Below are positions 3,558-9,665 of a stretch of DNA of 21,383 nt, in pieces. The first letter of the stretch is position 1. The number at the start of each line of letters is the position of its first letter. The DNA comes from a virus. The stretch is taken from the IMG/VR virus record IMGVR_UViG_3300027754_000504, positions 1-21,383 of that record; one strand, 5' to 3'. The notes under the pieces were generated by a model. The model worked only from the letters and a program-made list of their open reading frames with translations, ran no database searches and had not been told where the DNA came from. A program made the position numbers and the translations under genes.

Positions 3558-3974
3558 TTACGGTTCAGGATACGCTCGCTTGGACCATAATTCAAGTAGT
3601 TGTTGTTTGATTTCGGGCGGCATTGGAACTGCGTTCTTACGGGCTTCCTCAGCCTCTCTGTGGGCTTCTAAAGCCCTTTTGCGTTCTACCTCATCTCTTT
3701 GCTTAGAGAACCGCAAATCTCGCTCCTTGAGTTCATCTAAGGTCAATTTACGGGGTGGGGCAGGGTCATCCATCCACCTTTCTTCCTCTAACCATTTGGC
3801 AGGTGCAGAGGTGAAAGTAGGGTCGCGGTTTGGATCGCTCGCATACTTTTTTACTGCTTCTAAAATAACCGCCGGGGATACTTTAGTTATGGCAACTGCC
3901 CATGCCTGGCGTGTGCTGACAACACTTATCTTTCGAGGATAGGCGTTCCAGAACAAACCAAAGTCATCAATCAC
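3558..3974 (-). CDS. replication-initiator / helicase-loader-like protein
   Basis: A 138-residue protein. The N-terminal half carries the pattern FWNAYPRK, AWAVAITK, VKKYASD and WLEEERWMDD, which recurs at the C-terminus of many phage replication initiator and helicase-loader (DnaD/replisome-organiser type) proteins. The C-terminal half is a highly charged helix rich in Arg and Glu, probably coiled coil. The start chosen is the GTG at 3972-3974, which overlaps the TGA of whiB (GTGA). A TTG four codons upstream is possible but less likely. The usual N-terminal winged-helix domain of full initiators is absent, so this may be a minimal version. The role assignment is by pattern only. Confidence 0.55.
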   Translation of the reverse strand: MIDDFGLFWNAYPRKISVVSTRQAWAVAITKVSPAVILEAVKKYASDPNRDPTFTSAPAKWLEEERWMDDPAPPRKLTLDELKERDLRFSKQRDEVERKRALEAHREAEEARKNAVPMPPEIKQQLLELWSKRAYPEP

Positions 3975-4315
3975 TTTTCTCTCCAAACTAAATCCAAAAC
4001 ATCAGCTTCTGAAATTCCAAATACTTCTAATATCTTTACTGTTCGGTTTTTTATATCTGAAAATCTATAAGTCTTAAATGAATTTCTTTCGGTGCTAGTT
4101 AAACCACCCCATACACCGAATTCTTCATTCTTCATTGCATAACGTAAACAATCTTGCCAAATAGGACAACTAAAACAAGTCGGGCGTATTACTTCCATCA
4201 TTTCCATTTGGAGTTTGACGGTTTGGCGCTTTTCTTCCACGGTATAGAAATCATTAGTTTCCATACCGCGACACTTCGCCTTCTCCCAATCTATCCCCGT
4301 TTTAAGGAAGGACAC
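3971..4315 (-). CDS. whiB: WhiB-family iron-sulfur transcription regulator
   Basis: A 114-residue WhiB-like protein. The four cluster-binding cysteines are C15, C47, C50 and C56 (CFSCPIWQDC), followed by the family turn GVWGG at 67-71. Cellular WhiB proteins hold a 4Fe-4S cluster, bind region 4 of the main sigma factor and change promoter choice. Actinophage copies such as TM4 WhiBTM4 can downregulate host WhiB targets. The usual basic AT-hook-like tail after GVWGG is weak here. Instead there is a mixed helical tail that may be a different DNA- or protein-binding part. The GTG start at 4313-4315 is needed to include C15 and has GGGG upstream. It overlaps the Cas4-like nuclease gene by 25 bases. 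Confidence 0.92.
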   Translation of the reverse strand: MSFLKTGIDWEKAKCRGMETNDFYTVEEKRQTVKLQMEMMEVIRPTCFSCPIWQDCLRYAMKNEEFGVWGGLTSTERNSFKTYRFSDIKNRTVKILEVFGISEADVLDLVWREK

Positions 4316-5339: not shown

Positions 5340-5641
5340 AACTTTTCCCAAAGAGCAATCATTCGAGCATGGGATGCAGAGCGCGTTGATTTCATAAACC
5401 CAATGCGAGTTATTGATTTGTTATGCGCCCAAAAACGAATCTTTGCACCGACTGCATTATTAGCATTTGGACATTTATCATCAGGAAATCCAATTGCATT
5501 AGTTAAATCTTCTGAAGTTATGCGGAAGCCTGGCTCTAAACTATTTAACCAAATGTCAGCTTTGCAAGACCAAACTGCTTTGGCTAGCAATGCAGACTTT
5601 GCACCAACATCGGCTAGCGATTGACCTACCGCAACGCTCAT
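5336..5641 (-). CDS. hypothetical protein, coupled to recT
   Basis: A 101-residue protein with a helical N-terminus and a winged-helix-like middle (ITSEDLTNAIGFPDD, then a Gly/Ala-rich turn and KIRFWAHNKSITRIG). That layout could be a small DNA-binding domain, but no family is recognised. It is coupled by ATGA junctions to recT upstream and to the coiled-coil gene downstream, so it is likely made together with the recombination proteins. Confidence 0.6.
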   Translation of the reverse strand: MSVAVGQSLADVGAKSALLAKAVWSCKADIWLNSLEPGFRITSEDLTNAIGFPDDKCPNANNAVGAKIRFWAHNKSITRIGFMKSTRSASHARMIALWEKL

Positions 5642-6453
5642 TCTGTTACCTCAACCGCCGGGGTTACTGCTTTAAGTTCAGCAACACGATTTGAAATTAA
5701 ATCTTTCAAAGTAATGCCATCAATGTTGACATCTAAATACTTTTTATCTTCTGACCAAATTTCACGCAATTGGTCAATGTCAGTAATGGTTTTAACTTCA
5801 TTAAAAACATCTTTTATGTATTTTGTTTCTTCTTCTGTAAAGATTACAACTGCTGGCTCAATATGAAGCGCAGGAGTTTTTGCTTTAGAAGGAGATTCAG
5901 GTTTCTTTTCAACCGCATCTGCCTGGTTCATTTCCTCGGTTGTGTAAACGCCGGATAGATCGTTAGGAAATGCTTTGCGTAGTGCAAGTGCTTCTGCACA
6001 TTTAGCCAACATTAAGTCAGGCATTTTCTTCCAAATAGGACTTGAAGGATTTGCATAAGAATCCCATTTAGCAGAAGCGTAAGTTGCTTTATCAGAACCT
6101 TTGTAATAAACGCCAATACGAGCAGCAACAGGTGGAGTTGATTCCAACCAAATATCTTTCCAAACTCCATCCGTTCCACACCATTCAGCCATTGTTTGAC
6201 CGCCGTAATTGCCAGAGCGTTGCGCAACAATGCGGAATCCATCAATAGAGGTTTGAATTGTGTAACGACCACCGCGTTCAATCATATAAATTTGGCGGGC
6301 AAATGGGTCTAACCCTGTGCGTTGTGATTGGTGGAAGAAAACCTGCAAATCGCCCTTAGAAGCTCTTGAGAGTCCAAGTTGGCTAAGTGCAGCTATCTGT
6401 GAATCTGACCAAAAATCTTGGTCTGCTTTTAGAACTAATCCATGATCGCTCAT
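5638..6453 (-). CDS. recT: RecT/Bet-family single-strand annealing protein
   Basis: A 271-residue annealase of the Bet/RecT superfamily. Recognisable stretches include FFHQSQRTGLDPFARQIYMI, YTIQTSIDGFRIVAQRSGNYGG, the KWDSYA region, and KKMPDLMLAKCAEALALRKAFP followed by LSGVYTTEEM. These match the core domain (residues about 25-190). The C-terminal 80 residues are linker plus a variable tail. It anneals complementary single strands during phage replication and recombination, usually fed by a partner exonuclease, here the Cas4-like protein three genes downstream. It is the first gene of the leftward replication operon: a TTGACA/TATAGA promoter and an AAAGGG ribosome binding site lie just upstream. 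Confidence 0.9.
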   Translation of the reverse strand: MSDHGLVLKADQDFWSDSQIAALSQLGLSRASKGDLQVFFHQSQRTGLDPFARQIYMIERGGRYTIQTSIDGFRIVAQRSGNYGGQTMAEWCGTDGVWKDIWLESTPPVAARIGVYYKGSDKATYASAKWDSYANPSSPIWKKMPDLMLAKCAEALALRKAFPNDLSGVYTTEEMNQADAVEKKPESPSKAKTPALHIEPAVVIFTEEETKYIKDVFNEVKTITDIDQLREIWSEDKKYLDVNIDGITLKDLISNRVAELKAVTPAVEVTE

Positions 6454-6470
6454 GTTTACCCTTTCGTTTG

Positions 6471-6486
6471 GGCCTTTGAATAGGCC
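6471..6486 (-). promoter_or_regulatory. small inverted repeat in the recT leader
   Basis: GGCCT and AGGCC flank a 6-base loop, giving a short hairpin between the predicted transcription start and the ribosome binding site of recT. It could be an operator half-site pair or a leader hairpin. Five base pairs are too few to be sure. Confidence 0.3.
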
Positions 6487-6505
6487 ATTGGTAGTAATCT
6501 ATACG
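6476..6505 (+). promoter_or_regulatory. candidate divergent rightward promoter
   Basis: On the plus strand TTGAAT (6476-6481) and TATACG (6500-6505) are 18 bases apart and each matches consensus at four of six positions. It would overlap the leftward recT promoter, so the two directions could exclude each other. Weak call, made because the plus-strand gene pair at 6564-7309 needs some promoter and this 110-base gap is the obvious place. The run TTGGTA-16-TAATGT nearby is an alternative. Confidence 0.25.
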
Positions 6506-6525
6506 AGCGTAATGTTTGGTGTCAA
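6498..6525 (-). promoter_or_regulatory. sigma-70-type promoter for the recT operon
   Basis: On the minus strand TTGACA (6520-6525) is a perfect -35 box. It is followed after 16 bases by TATAGA (6498-6503) as the -10 box. It faces recT, with the predicted start of transcription near 6490 and the ATG at 6453. It is the best promoter match I see in the window. It lies in the only divergent intergenic space, so it is likely the early leftward promoter and a natural control point. Confidence 0.65.
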
Positions 6526-6563
6526 TAACCCCCTCGTTCTGCGTGTCGTGAGAGGATGACCCC

Positions 6564-6764
6564 ATGACATTTTCATCAATCGAAATACGGCTAGGTGGGT
6601 TATCCGTTTCTGTCCAAACAGAACTCACCTACCCCGATGGATTGCATGATATGACTTCTAGGGCGTTGGAAATGTTCCATGAAACTATTGAAACTGCGAC
6701 CACAAAAGGTATTGACATTACAACTATGACTTTGCATACAGGGGTTGACGAGGAAGATTTTTAA
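6564..6764 (+). CDS. small hypothetical protein coupled to the HslV-like gene
   Basis: A 66-residue protein of unknown family. It has a beta-like N-terminus (IEIRLGGLSVSVQTE), a central helix (MTSRALEMFHETIETATTKG) and a strand followed by an acidic C-terminus (VDEEDF). A GAGAGG ribosome binding site lies about 8 bases before the ATG. Its TAA overlaps the ATG of the Ntn-hydrolase gene (TAATG), so the two are made together. With its partner it is the only believable plus-strand transcription unit in the window. A role as partner, activator or inhibitor of the hydrolase is inferred only from position. Confidence 0.7.
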   Translation: MTFSSIEIRLGGLSVSVQTELTYPDGLHDMTSRALEMFHETIETATTKGIDITTMTLHTGVDEEDF

Positions 6765-7309
6765 TGACCACGATACTTGGAATCGAACATGAGGATAGTT
6801 GCACCTTAATAGCCGATAACCGGGTAACGGATGATGGGGGAAGAATCTATACCCACCCGACAATGAAGAAACTTTCTCAGGTTGGGGAGTTTATTATTGG
6901 GGGATCAGGGGAAGTTAGCCCTTGTGATATTGCCCAACACCTTTGGAAGCCACCAACGGTTACTTCTAAAGACCGCCAAGACATCTACCATTTTATGATT
7001 TCAAAGGCTATGCCTTCGCTTCGTGAATGTCTTAAAGCCAATGGTTACAACTTTGACGAAGACCAGGAAAAAAATTCAGGTTCAAGATTTCAATTCCTTA
7101 TTGCAGTCAATGGCGAACTCTTTGATGTTGACCAAGACCTTGCAGTAATGAAATCTAGCAATGGGTTATATGGAGTTGGATCAGGAGCTGCTTACGCTCT
7201 TGGCGCTTTATCTGCCGGAGCAGAACCAATGCGGGCTATGGAAATTGCAACCGAACTTACTGCTTTTACTGCACCGCCGTATCAGACAATGATTCAGTAT
7301 TCAAAGTAA
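6764..7309 (+). CDS. HslV / proteasome-beta-like Ntn hydrolase
   Basis: A 181-residue protein, close to the roughly 175 residues of bacterial HslV. After the initiator Met it begins TTILGIE, as HslV begins TTI; the first Thr would be the nucleophile. Counting from that Thr, D17 in ADNRVT matches the conserved D17 of HslV (GDGQAT), and K35 in MKKL matches HslV K33. IIGGSGEV corresponds to the IAGFAGG region, and GVGSGAAYALGAL to IGSGGPYAQAA. These are the active-site and core elements of the T1 peptidase fold. HslV normally forms a double hexamer fed by the AAA+ unfoldase HslU, and no unfoldase gene is in the window. The substrate is unknown. The 3' end overlaps the convergent DNA methyltransferase by 44 bases. 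Confidence 0.78.
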   Translation: MTTILGIEHEDSCTLIADNRVTDDGGRIYTHPTMKKLSQVGEFIIGGSGEVSPCDIAQHLWKPPTVTSKDRQDIYHFMISKAMPSLRECLKANGYNFDEDQEKNSGSRFQFLIAVNGELFDVDQDLAVMKSSNGLYGVGSGAAYALGALSAGAEPMRAMEIATELTAFTAPPYQTMIQYSK

Positions 7310-7940
7310 CTAAGCGTTTAATAATATAATCAACAACAGGAACTGCTACTGCGTTTCCCATTTGCTTGTAACGGTTTGTATCGGCTTGGTCATCAGTCCA
7401 ATTATCAGGAAATCCTTGAAGGCGCTCGCACTCAACAGGAGTTAAACGGCGAACAATAGGAGAATCTGCAATAAACAATTGAGCATGGTGCGATTGAACT
7501 GAAGGCTGATGTGCCTGAACTGTCAATGCGGTATCCGTTTCTGTCGCACTAAAAGTATTTGCCTTAGCATCTTCTCTTATTGAATAAGCCACGGCTTGCC
7601 CACCTGTTCTGTCAAGAGTATAAGAAGGATCAGTTTCATCACCAATGCCTAAACCATTTTGGTTTTTTTCCATATCGCGCCCATCTTGTATTGGGTAAGA
7701 GATCATTGGAACATTTCCCCCGCCTGTTCCCATTCGTGCTTGCAATGTGTTGATTACATCGCCCTGAATTCTAATGTCATCAACCCTATGTCCATCAAAA
7801 ATTAAAACGGTTGCTCTTGTATCCCCATTATCAAATGCGTTCAATGTAGGAACTGCCCCCCCCTGAATCCAAGTTTCAAAATCTTCCGCGCTTTGCGCTC
7901 TACGAGCTTTCGTGAACCAAGAAGGTTTCACTTCCACCAC
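7266..7940 (-). CDS. C5-cytosine DNA methyltransferase, C-terminal part (frame-shifted)
   Basis: This frame holds the C-terminal half of the methyltransferase that begins at 8637. Motif IX (RRLTPVECERLQGFPDNWT) and motif X (QMGNAVAVPVVDYI) are intact. Before them lies a variable region with the phage-type segment KARRAQSAEDFETWI and a long target-recognition-like stretch. The listed start is a GTG that gives only a few meaningless residues before the conserved KARRAQ, so it is unlikely to be a true start. One base too many (or two too few) near 7905-7915, in GAAAGCTCG, separates this frame from the N-terminal one. Either the gene is broken, the base is a sequence or assembly error, or a shift of frame occurs in translation. 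Confidence 0.8.
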   Translation of the reverse strand: MVEVKPSWFTKARRAQSAEDFETWIQGGAVPTLNAFDNGDTRATVLIFDGHRVDDIRIQGDVINTLQARMGTGGGNVPMISYPIQDGRDMEKNQNGLGIGDETDPSYTLDRTGGQAVAYSIREDAKANTFSATETDTALTVQAHQPSVQSHHAQLFIADSPIVRRLTPVECERLQGFPDNWTDDQADTNRYKQMGNAVAVPVVDYIIKRLVTLNTESLSDTAVQ

Positions 7941-8637
7941 CTAGGACACCACCAGATTGTTTAAGAGTGCTTACTTGTCCTTCTTTGTATTGTCCAAAAC
8001 TTGATTCGCCAAATGCTCCAATGCTTTCTGAAGTTGATTCGGCAATGTTTTTTCCCTTCGGTTTGCTCTGCGCAAGATACCCTGCGCGGCCTTCGAGGAT
8101 AGCGAGTATTTCAGCAGGTGTTCGCCAGTCATCTCCAAGACATCCGACAATGAAGACTCTGCGCCGTCTTTGGGGAACTCCGAAGTATTGAGCATCAAGC
8201 ACTCGCCACGCGATGCTATACCCGAGGTCATCCAACGCTCCGATGACTGTTCCCATATCTCTTCCTTTGTTGCTTGAAAGTAAACCTGGGACATTTTCCA
8301 AAATGAAGAATTTTGATTTGGTTTCTTCGAGGATTCTAACAATTTCCCAAAATAAACCTGATCTGCCGCCAGCCAATCCAGCACGTTTGCCAGCCACGGA
8401 GAGGTCTTGACAGGGGAATCCACCGACAATAATTCCATCTGAATTAAATCCGAGTTCAAAGAGTTGCTTTCCTGTAACATCGCACACATCCTCTAAAATT
8501 GTTGAATTGGGAAACCTTTTCGCCAATACCTTTCGTGCATTTTTATCTATCTCTACTGAAGCAACAACTTCCATTCCATTGCGTTCAAGTGCTAAATCAA
8601 AGCCACCTACTCCTGCAAATAGTGATACCGCTTTCAT
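7900..8637 (-). CDS. C5-cytosine DNA methyltransferase, N-terminal part
   Basis: This frame encodes the SAM-binding and catalytic half of a Dcm-type enzyme that methylates cytosine at carbon 5. Motif I is SLFAGVGGFDLALE (residues 5-18), motif IV is GGFPCQDLS with catalytic C76, motif VI is ENVPGLL with E114, and motif VIII is QRRRRVF at about 156. The frame ends after GGGSETFLVHESS at a TAG, before motifs IX and X, which continue in another frame at 7266-7940. The ATG at 8635-8637 overlaps the TAA of the phosphoesterase gene (TAATG). A start four codons further up is less likely. In phages such enzymes protect DNA from host restriction or mimic host methylation. Without motifs IX-X it should be inactive unless the frame is restored. 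Confidence 0.88.
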   Translation of the reverse strand: MKAVSLFAGVGGFDLALERNGMEVVASVEIDKNARKVLAKRFPNSTILEDVCDVTGKQLFELGFNSDGIIVGGFPCQDLSVAGKRAGLAGGRSGLFWEIVRILEETKSKFFILENVPGLLSSNKGRDMGTVIGALDDLGYSIAWRVLDAQYFGVPQRRRRVFIVGCLGDDWRTPAEILAILEGRAGYLAQSKPKGKNIAESTSESIGAFGESSFGQYKEGQVSTLKQSGGVLGGGSETFLVHESS

Positions 8638-9665
8638 TAGTCTAACCAAACTTGATATTGAGCCGTTACGCGACCTTTATCGGGATCAACAAAGTGAAGT
8701 CGCTGACTAGGCATACCTGATGCAGCCATTGAATCTCTCGCATATCGGTTATCGCTTTCAGTAGAACCAGTCCAATAAAGATTAAAGTTCTTTTGGATTG
8801 GCTCTTGTGCGTGGCGATGGTAATGTCCTAAATAAATATCGTGGAAATCGTAATCGTGAGCGCCAGCCTTCCAACGGTTAGCACCAGCAATCCATGCAGC
8901 AGGACTAGCAAATCCTGATCGCCCTAGTTCGTCACCATGCATTAACAGAGCGCGGTAATTGCCAACTGCTACTTCTTGTATATCTTCAGGGCAATCTTCC
9001 CAGGTTAGTCTTTTTTCATTAGAAAGTATTTGTCTAGCCATTTCATAAACCATACGATCAACATTGTCATTCTTGGGAACTTCAGCTCGCTTGCTACCTA
9101 TGCGCCCGTGGTTTCCCCACTCAGCAACAACAGTTACCTTTTCAAAGTTGGTAAGCATTACTCGAACAAAGTCCACACATAATCTTGATACGCTGGTAAA
9201 TTGCCCAAATAATGAGGCATCAATTTGCCAAAGTTGTGCCGGATAATTGAATAAACCTTCAACCATATCTCCACCGAACATAACTACACATTCCTTTACG
9301 GGATGATGTTGGCGTTGGAGTTCAGTAAGGTGAACAATTTTATCTGCAAATTGAAGAACTCTTTTTCTCATTACTTCACTATTGTAAGAAGTAGTAATTT
9401 TAGAGCCTTGCCAATCCGTTGAATGGACTAAAGCTACTTCAGGTTTTGCTTTACGATTATCTGTTTTTGGAGCAACAACTGGTGTTACTTTTCCAAGAGC
9501 AAGCATCGCTTCATAAGCACCACGTTGAGTAGCAATTACAAGTTCATCATTGCGAATTTTGGCTTTGGCTAATTGTTTTTGGGTGTTGTTTAGCGCTTTG
9601 CGCAATTCAACAATTTCAGGATCAGATTCTTTTTTTAATTCTTCTAGTTCATCCTTTAGAGCCAT
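8637..9665 (-). CDS. calcineurin-like metallophosphoesterase
   Basis: A 342-residue protein with an N-terminal charged coiled coil (residues 1-55) and a metallophosphoesterase domain. Motifs in order: HSTDWQG (D84), GGDMVEG (D123), WGNHGR (N175 and H176), LMHGDE (H233), and GHYHRH (H271 and H273). This is the metal-binding set of the calcineurin/Mre11 fold. The first motif is normally D-x-H, but here the third position is Gln (D84-W-Q86), so one metal ligand or its helper is changed. Relatives in actinophages are annotated simply as metallophosphoesterases. A DNA-end nuclease or phosphodiesterase role is possible. It overlaps the upstream gene by 17 bases and is TAATG-coupled to the methyltransferase. 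Confidence 0.85.
   Translation of the reverse strand: MALKDELEELKKESDPEIVELRKALNNTQKQLAKAKIRNDELVIATQRGAYEAMLALGKVTPVVAPKTDNRKAKPEVALVHSTDWQGSKITTSYNSEVMRKRVLQFADKIVHLTELQRQHHPVKECVVMFGGDMVEGLFNYPAQLWQIDASLFGQFTSVSRLCVDFVRVMLTNFEKVTVVAEWGNHGRIGSKRAEVPKNDNVDRMVYEMARQILSNEKRLTWEDCPEDIQEVAVGNYRALLMHGDELGRSGFASPAAWIAGANRWKAGAHDYDFHDIYLGHYHRHAQEPIQKNFNLYWTGSTESDNRYARDSMAASGMPSQRLHFVDPDKGRVTAQYQVWLD

Follow-up and report, generated by a model that had tools for sequence, protein, structure and literature searches.

A putative accessory peptidase of the proteasome/HslV type in freshwater actinophages

The window analysed here is a viral DNA stretch of 21,383 nucleotides (IMG/VR record IMGVR_UViG_3300027754_000504, positions 1 to 21,383). 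It encodes a 181-aa protein that is a genuine relative of the T1 (proteasome/HslV-type) peptidases, and the gene for this protein is gained, lost and exchanged between genome positions among phages. With a probability of roughly 55%, we interpret it as an accessory T1 peptidase of freshwater actinophages that is carried as an interchangeable cassette, forms a ring, acts without an unfoldase and degrades host proteins. Phage-borne HslV-like proteins are an already described and annotated kind. To judge from the literature consulted, the genomic contexts, the exchange, the absences and the connection with cultured actinophages seem not to have been observed before.

Gene organization of the island

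The original prediction described two coupled plus-strand ORFs of 66 and 181 aa, and both are present in the window, joined by a TAATG overlap. The features of the locus are as follows.

3971..4315, minus strand: WhiB regulator (PF02467, E=3.6e-13)
5638..6453, minus strand: RecT recombinase, left flank of the island (PF03837, E=1.1e-27)
6454..6563, no strand: divergent intergenic region between recT (minus) and the island (plus), from the ORF layout
6550-6555, plus strand: Shine-Dalgarno-like GAGAGG of the 66-aa gene, from the sequence
6564..6764, plus strand: 66-aa CDS, small island gene with a beta-beta-alpha-beta model, from orthologues and AF2
6750..6756, plus strand: Shine-Dalgarno-like GAGGAAG of the protease gene, from the sequence
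6764..7309, plus strand: 181-aa CDS, HslV/BPH-like T1 (threonine) peptidase, from profile, AF2 model and Foldseek
7266..7940, minus strand: C-terminal part of a split C5-cytosine methyltransferase, right flank of the island (PF00145, E=1.4e-15)
7900..8649, minus strand: N-terminal part of the split C5-cytosine methyltransferase (PF00145, E=6.4e-59)

Transcription of the island presumably starts in the intergenic region at 6454..6563. The C-terminal methyltransferase ORF overlaps the 3' end of the protease gene. The presence of a WhiB gene identifies the window phage as an actinophage. Its full gene order was taken from IMGVR 3300009181_000167, a 38.1-kb assembly of this phage with a 100% identical protease. 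The island had been described as the sole plus-strand unit; this holds within the window, where ORF inspection revealed no other convincing plus-strand genes, but the 38.1-kb assembly contains more plus-strand ORFs just left of the island. The division of the methyltransferase into two overlapping ORFs (7266-7940 and 7900-8649) recurs in L279, L281, L283 and L284, and the split therefore looks conserved. It may reflect a two-subunit enzyme or recoding.

Family, fold and catalytic residues of the protease

Profile searches placed the 181-aa protein in PHROG_1040 ('peptidase HslV family'; E=2.7e-27). The Pfam profile PF00227, which had also been proposed as a check, gave a match below the cut-off of 22.4 bits for the window protein and matches above it for alleles in the same island slot (L287, 40.1 bits; L286, 27.9 bits). 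A family profile built from 34 viral relatives retrieved BPH (E=5.7e-10) and HslV (E=3e-8) from the PDB. The AF2 model of the protein alone, another check that had been suggested, is a confident proteasome fold (pLDDT 90.3, pTM 0.87). Among solved structures, Foldseek matched this model best to BPH 5ovs (E=2.3e-11, TM 0.73), and also to HslV 3ty6 (E=2.6e-10, TM about 0.67) and proteasome beta, with a probability of 1.00 for these matches. In a viral structure library, a protein named HslV from an uncultured phage scored best (E=1.2e-18). The scores against the equivalog models stay under their cut-offs, both for HslV of HslVU (NCBIfam; 18.5 vs 157.75 bits) and for the archaeal 20S beta subunit (TIGR03634; 20.8 vs 224 bits).

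The dN/dS of the protease gene against close relatives is 0.08-0.15, and the gene is under purifying selection. Because of this value, the PHROG_1040 match and the more than 100 encoded relatives found in one viral scan, the ORF is not a chance reading frame.

The residues on which the T1 assignment was originally based, namely a Thr directly after the initiator Met, D17, a lysine in MKKL and a glycine turn, are all conserved. Their positions, and that of an acidic loop, are given below.

6767..6769, plus strand: codon of Thr2, mature Thr1, the predicted nucleophile; invariant in 49/49 homologues, aligned to Thr1 of BPH/HslV
6815..6817, plus strand: codon of Asp18, mature Asp17; invariant in 49/49
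6869..6871, plus strand: codon of Lys36, equivalent of the catalytic Lys33; invariant in 49/49, aligned to the NQKV lysine of BPH
7040..7087, plus strand: acidic loop after helix 2, residues 93-108, at the 'pore loop' site of BPH
7178..7186, plus strand: GSG turn, residues 139-141, equivalent of the Ser129 region; both glycines invariant in 49/49

The protein starts with MTT. No substitution of T2, D18, K36, G139 or G141 occurs among 49 divergent phage homologues, some with as little as about 25% identity, and the profile alignment places Thr2, Asp18 and Lys36 on Thr1, Asp17 and the catalytic Lys of the PDB matches. Of the two lysines in MKKL, only the second is invariant, and it is the catalytic one; it is K36 with Met counted and K35 in the mature protein, two positions later than K33 of HslV. 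Among the 49 homologues, variation is seen at residues 164-168, towards the end of helix 4. The acidic loop is net negative in all 49 of them (27% acidic residues vs 12% in the whole protein) and forms a low-confidence stretch of the AF2 model. With the PHROG_1040 profile, the proteasome-type Ntn fold and the invariant Thr/Asp/Lys in agreement, the predicted T1/HslV-type identity is borne out.

Comparison with known proteasome homologues

In the AF2 model, two helix pairs are seen (51-60 and 74-92; 142-150 and 155-165) and a C-terminal fifth helix is absent. As modelled, this is the compact layout of group I of Fuchs et al. PPH and AAH are proteasome homologues found in phages and hosts; the window protease shares with them a phage-borne occurrence and the compact group I layout lacking C-terminal helix 5. 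PPH is about 140 aa long and has no helix H2 (Fuchs, Alva and Lupas 2021, PMC8665760), whereas the window protease has 181 aa and H2 is present in its model; assignment to PPH is therefore ruled out. The modelled layout would be compatible with AAH, with which the protease was compared by layout alone. No Actinobacteria-specific phage carrier of AAH was found in the earlier survey (PMC8665760), and membership of the protease group in AAH, if true, would bear on this stated gap.

The closest solved fold is that of BPH, the beta-proteobacterial proteasome homologue (PDB 5ovs/5ovu; TM 0.73, 21-24% identity). BPH has no known unfoldase and possesses a long acidic pore loop (PMC8665760). BPH and the phage protease share the long acidic loop and the lack of an unfoldase gene; BPH is a bacterial gene, and a ring architecture of the phage protein is drawn from it by analogy only. 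HslV of HslVU resembles the phage protein in fold (TM about 0.67), in the N-terminal TTI, and in D17, the Lys and GSG. The phage protein differs from it in an equivalog score far under the cut-off, in the lack of HslU and in its extra acidic loop, which is long where the corresponding loop of HslV is short. The absence of an unfoldase near the protease, as noted originally, extends to six related phage genomes, in which no match to AAA_2 (PF07724) of HslU/ClpX-type unfoldases was found (14/14 controls positive).

PHROG_1040 includes members from Aeromonas, Erwinia, Pantoea and Psychrobacter phages and from Actinomycetia phage DSL-LC01. By profile they belong to the same family as the window protease and have the same invariant T/D/K, but they share only 23-31% identity with it over the first 130 or so residues, and their genes lie in other contexts, near recombination, nucleotide or early genes. 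The proteins of the cultured Planktophila phages LanE43-AprF5 (OX376641, F5) and E7 (OX376640) are 37-39% identical to the window protease over the full length and have the same residues. Like the window phage, these are actinophages, with freshwater Nanopelagicales as the host group. The F5 protease gene lies directly behind the portal gene without a 66-aa neighbour, whereas that of the window lies in the recT/dcm island.

Distribution and genome positions

Single scans of viral sequences retrieved 103 relatives with the window protein as query and 199 with the Planktophila-phage protein as query. Related freshwater phages with versions of the protease thus number hundreds. One large actinophage lineage, to which Planktophila phages E7 and F5 belong, has the protease gene directly behind the portal gene (confirmed by phrog_104, E=8e-28); most representatives have 14-18 nt between the portal stop and the protease start. 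Counting informative loci found by portal only, the protease is present in 60 of 70 loci of this portal type (portal-A) and cleanly absent in 10, where the next small gene directly follows the portal gene. Three of these ten loci are on full contigs (30.5, 37.5 and 39.9 kb), and the protease is found nowhere on them. The 39.9-kb contig (G022) contains TerL, portal, scaffold and capsid genes; its first 95 bases recur at the end of the stretch examined, so it is probably complete.

The portal of the window lineage is about 23% identical to that of the F5 lineage. The protease was found in 9 of 14 records of the window lineage and is absent from G019 (39.3 kb) and G020 (35.9 kb). Where present, it lies on the strand opposite to the head genes and well away from them, in the plus-strand island that recT and dcm/phosphoesterase enclose. 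In G019, the place of the protease and the 66-aa gene is filled by an ORF (L288, 531-1451) with a DNA-methyltransferase-like SPPYW motif, recognized by eye. A third position, behind a CHAP endolysin gene, is seen in L011 and L014, and other phages carry the protease among metabolism or early genes.

Exchange of protease alleles

Post-portal proteins of L007/L009 share 77-81% identity with the window protease, although they come from a lineage whose portal shares only about 23% identity with that of the window lineage. In the maximum-likelihood tree, the island position requires 8 changes, at least 6 of them forced by well-supported branches; the tree has some long branches, and individual placements are uncertain. 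Alleles are also replaced within a single position: L192 and L205 have portals that are 96% identical and proteases that are 33% identical. Likewise, in G018 and G011 the right-hand phosphoesterase-like neighbour is 91-92% identical and the protease 30-36%. Between the window and L003, identity of the protease genes is 0.53-0.76 per 45-nt block in the first 180 nt and 0.89-1.00 thereafter. Over L003 1838-2380 and window 6764-7306, it is about 67% in the first 165 nt and 95% after. This mosaic identity points to recombination inside the protease gene. The repeated moves between positions, together with the absence from near-complete genomes, identify the protease gene as an accessory, interchangeable cassette.

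A late gene close to the protease varies just as much in the portal lineage, unlike TerL. The turnover is therefore regional and not specific to the protease, which softens its reading as the signal of a protease-specific arms race. The gene in question encodes a low-complexity protein of 130-160 aa shortly behind the protease slot (L178 16425-16907 and orthologues); it is even more variable than the protease, whereas TerL and portal are conserved.

The neighbouring 66-aa gene

Orthologues of the 66-aa protein occur on at least 8 contigs and share 20 invariant columns. Its AF2 model is a weak beta-beta-alpha-beta structure (pLDDT 71.5). Profile searches gave no family match, and the fold search against the PDB returned nothing significant (best E 0.48). 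The original prediction paired the small gene with the protease and named related phages lacking the small partner as decisive against the pairing. A functional pair, either a protease with its inhibitor or cofactor or a toxin-antitoxin-like unit, would agree with the TAATG overlap and with the 66-aa gene preceding the protease gene in at least 8 island relatives, even where the proteases are strongly divergent (G011 and G017). The co-occurrence survey, however, found the 66-aa gene without the protease in L085-L089, in the same kind of island and within the flanks examined. The protease in turn occurs without the 66-aa gene in the island relatives G010, G012 and G018 and throughout the portal lineage, and most protease relatives lack the small gene. 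As each gene is found alone, the pairing fails the criterion named in the original prediction; it is not obligate, and an obligate pair was rejected. A functional pair of any kind is very improbable, and the 66-aa gene is better read as another, independent resident of the insertion island than as an obligate cofactor.

Proposed function and alternatives

Judging from sequence, the phage protein is expected to have Thr1-dependent proteolytic activity. Removal of Met would expose Thr1, which would be activated by Asp17 and the Lys33 equivalent. By analogy with BPH, a self-compartmentalised ring is the most likely assembly of the subunits; its entrance would be lined by the long acidic loop, and it would have no need for a dedicated unfoldase. 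The substrates would most likely be host proteins in the infected cell, either unfolded or specific ones, and their degradation may help takeover or counter a host factor. A regulator or restriction protein, as originally suggested, is a possible target. The phages probably employ the protease as an optional means of acting on host proteins and not as a virion component. Swapping between unrelated phages, probably with common hosts, fits such an accessory, host-directed function. On the other hand, a virion role would be consistent with the portal-lineage gene being part of the late head operon, and its fast turnover is equally seen in the nearby late gene. A scan of defence and counter-defence families gave no match to the protease, and we found no paper on its function; the phage isolation paper mentions genes for degrading host proteins and, in the part consulted, does not name the protease. 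We tentatively consider a more specific possibility, an exchangeable weapon against the host in which one slot at either of two positions receives alleles of 25-35% identity, swapped between unrelated lineages and each adapted to a host protein, for instance a defence factor. If true, this would give phage proteasome homologues a first function.

A virion role could be that of a prohead or portal-associated protease processing scaffold, portal or ejection proteins. This is attractive because in the main lineage the gene immediately follows the portal gene, where prohead proteases are usually encoded, at a spacing of 14-18 nt, and because it is present in 60/70 loci. A prohead protease would be kept wherever head genes are kept, but this one is missing from G022 and nine more portal-A loci, and a gene that is dispensable with head genes present is unlikely to act in capsid maturation. 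The idea is further weakened by the other locations, beside recT/dcm on the other strand and far from the head genes in the window lineage, behind the endolysin gene in L011/L014 and among metabolism or early genes elsewhere. We regard it as unlikely. Somewhat less improbable, yet still doubtful, is docking onto a host unfoldase of the ClpX/ClpC or Mpa/ARC type, in which the phage protein would serve as peptidase subunit and redirect host protein degradation. The HslV-like fold would allow this, and the host would have to supply the unfoldase that these phages lack. The low score against the HslV equivalog, the closest fold being BPH with no known unfoldase, and a long acidic loop where that of HslV is short all argue against it. 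An Ntn enzyme of other chemistry, such as a small-molecule amidase or a connectase-like protein ligase, is conceivable since proteasome homologues with other functions exist; connectase acts as a ligase and lacks the first helix pair (PMC8665760). The AF2 model of the phage protein shows both helix pairs and no connectase-type long insertion, and the closest solved matches are proteases, which makes such an enzyme quite improbable.

PPH, AAH and PHROG_1040 have been catalogued without a known function or a telling genomic context. The optional host-directed protease proposed here belongs to a large group carried by phages of the bacteria that are most abundant in fresh water, among them Planktophila phages E7 and F5, whose host is in culture. 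The cultured phages, the natural presence and absence of the gene and the allele swaps at fixed positions make the question of proteasome-like phage proteases experimentally approachable.

HslV-like genes in other phages and plasmids

Genome-contig scans, which reach close relatives only and are therefore weak in this respect, gave no host homologues. Actinomycetia phage DSL-LC01 carries an HslV-like gene for 229 aa with a basic tail directly before a WhiB gene (L092 5001-5954). Aeromonas phage 2L372X (L094) has two adjacent 'peptidase HslV family' genes, as if the subunits had been duplicated. Homologues with 25-28% identity, mostly annotated as hypothetical, are encoded on plasmids of Rhizobium, Sinorhizobium, Mesorhizobium, Paraburkholderia and Streptomyces, for example at L292 2501-3091 (rhizobial) and L293 2501-3043 (Streptomyces plasmid).
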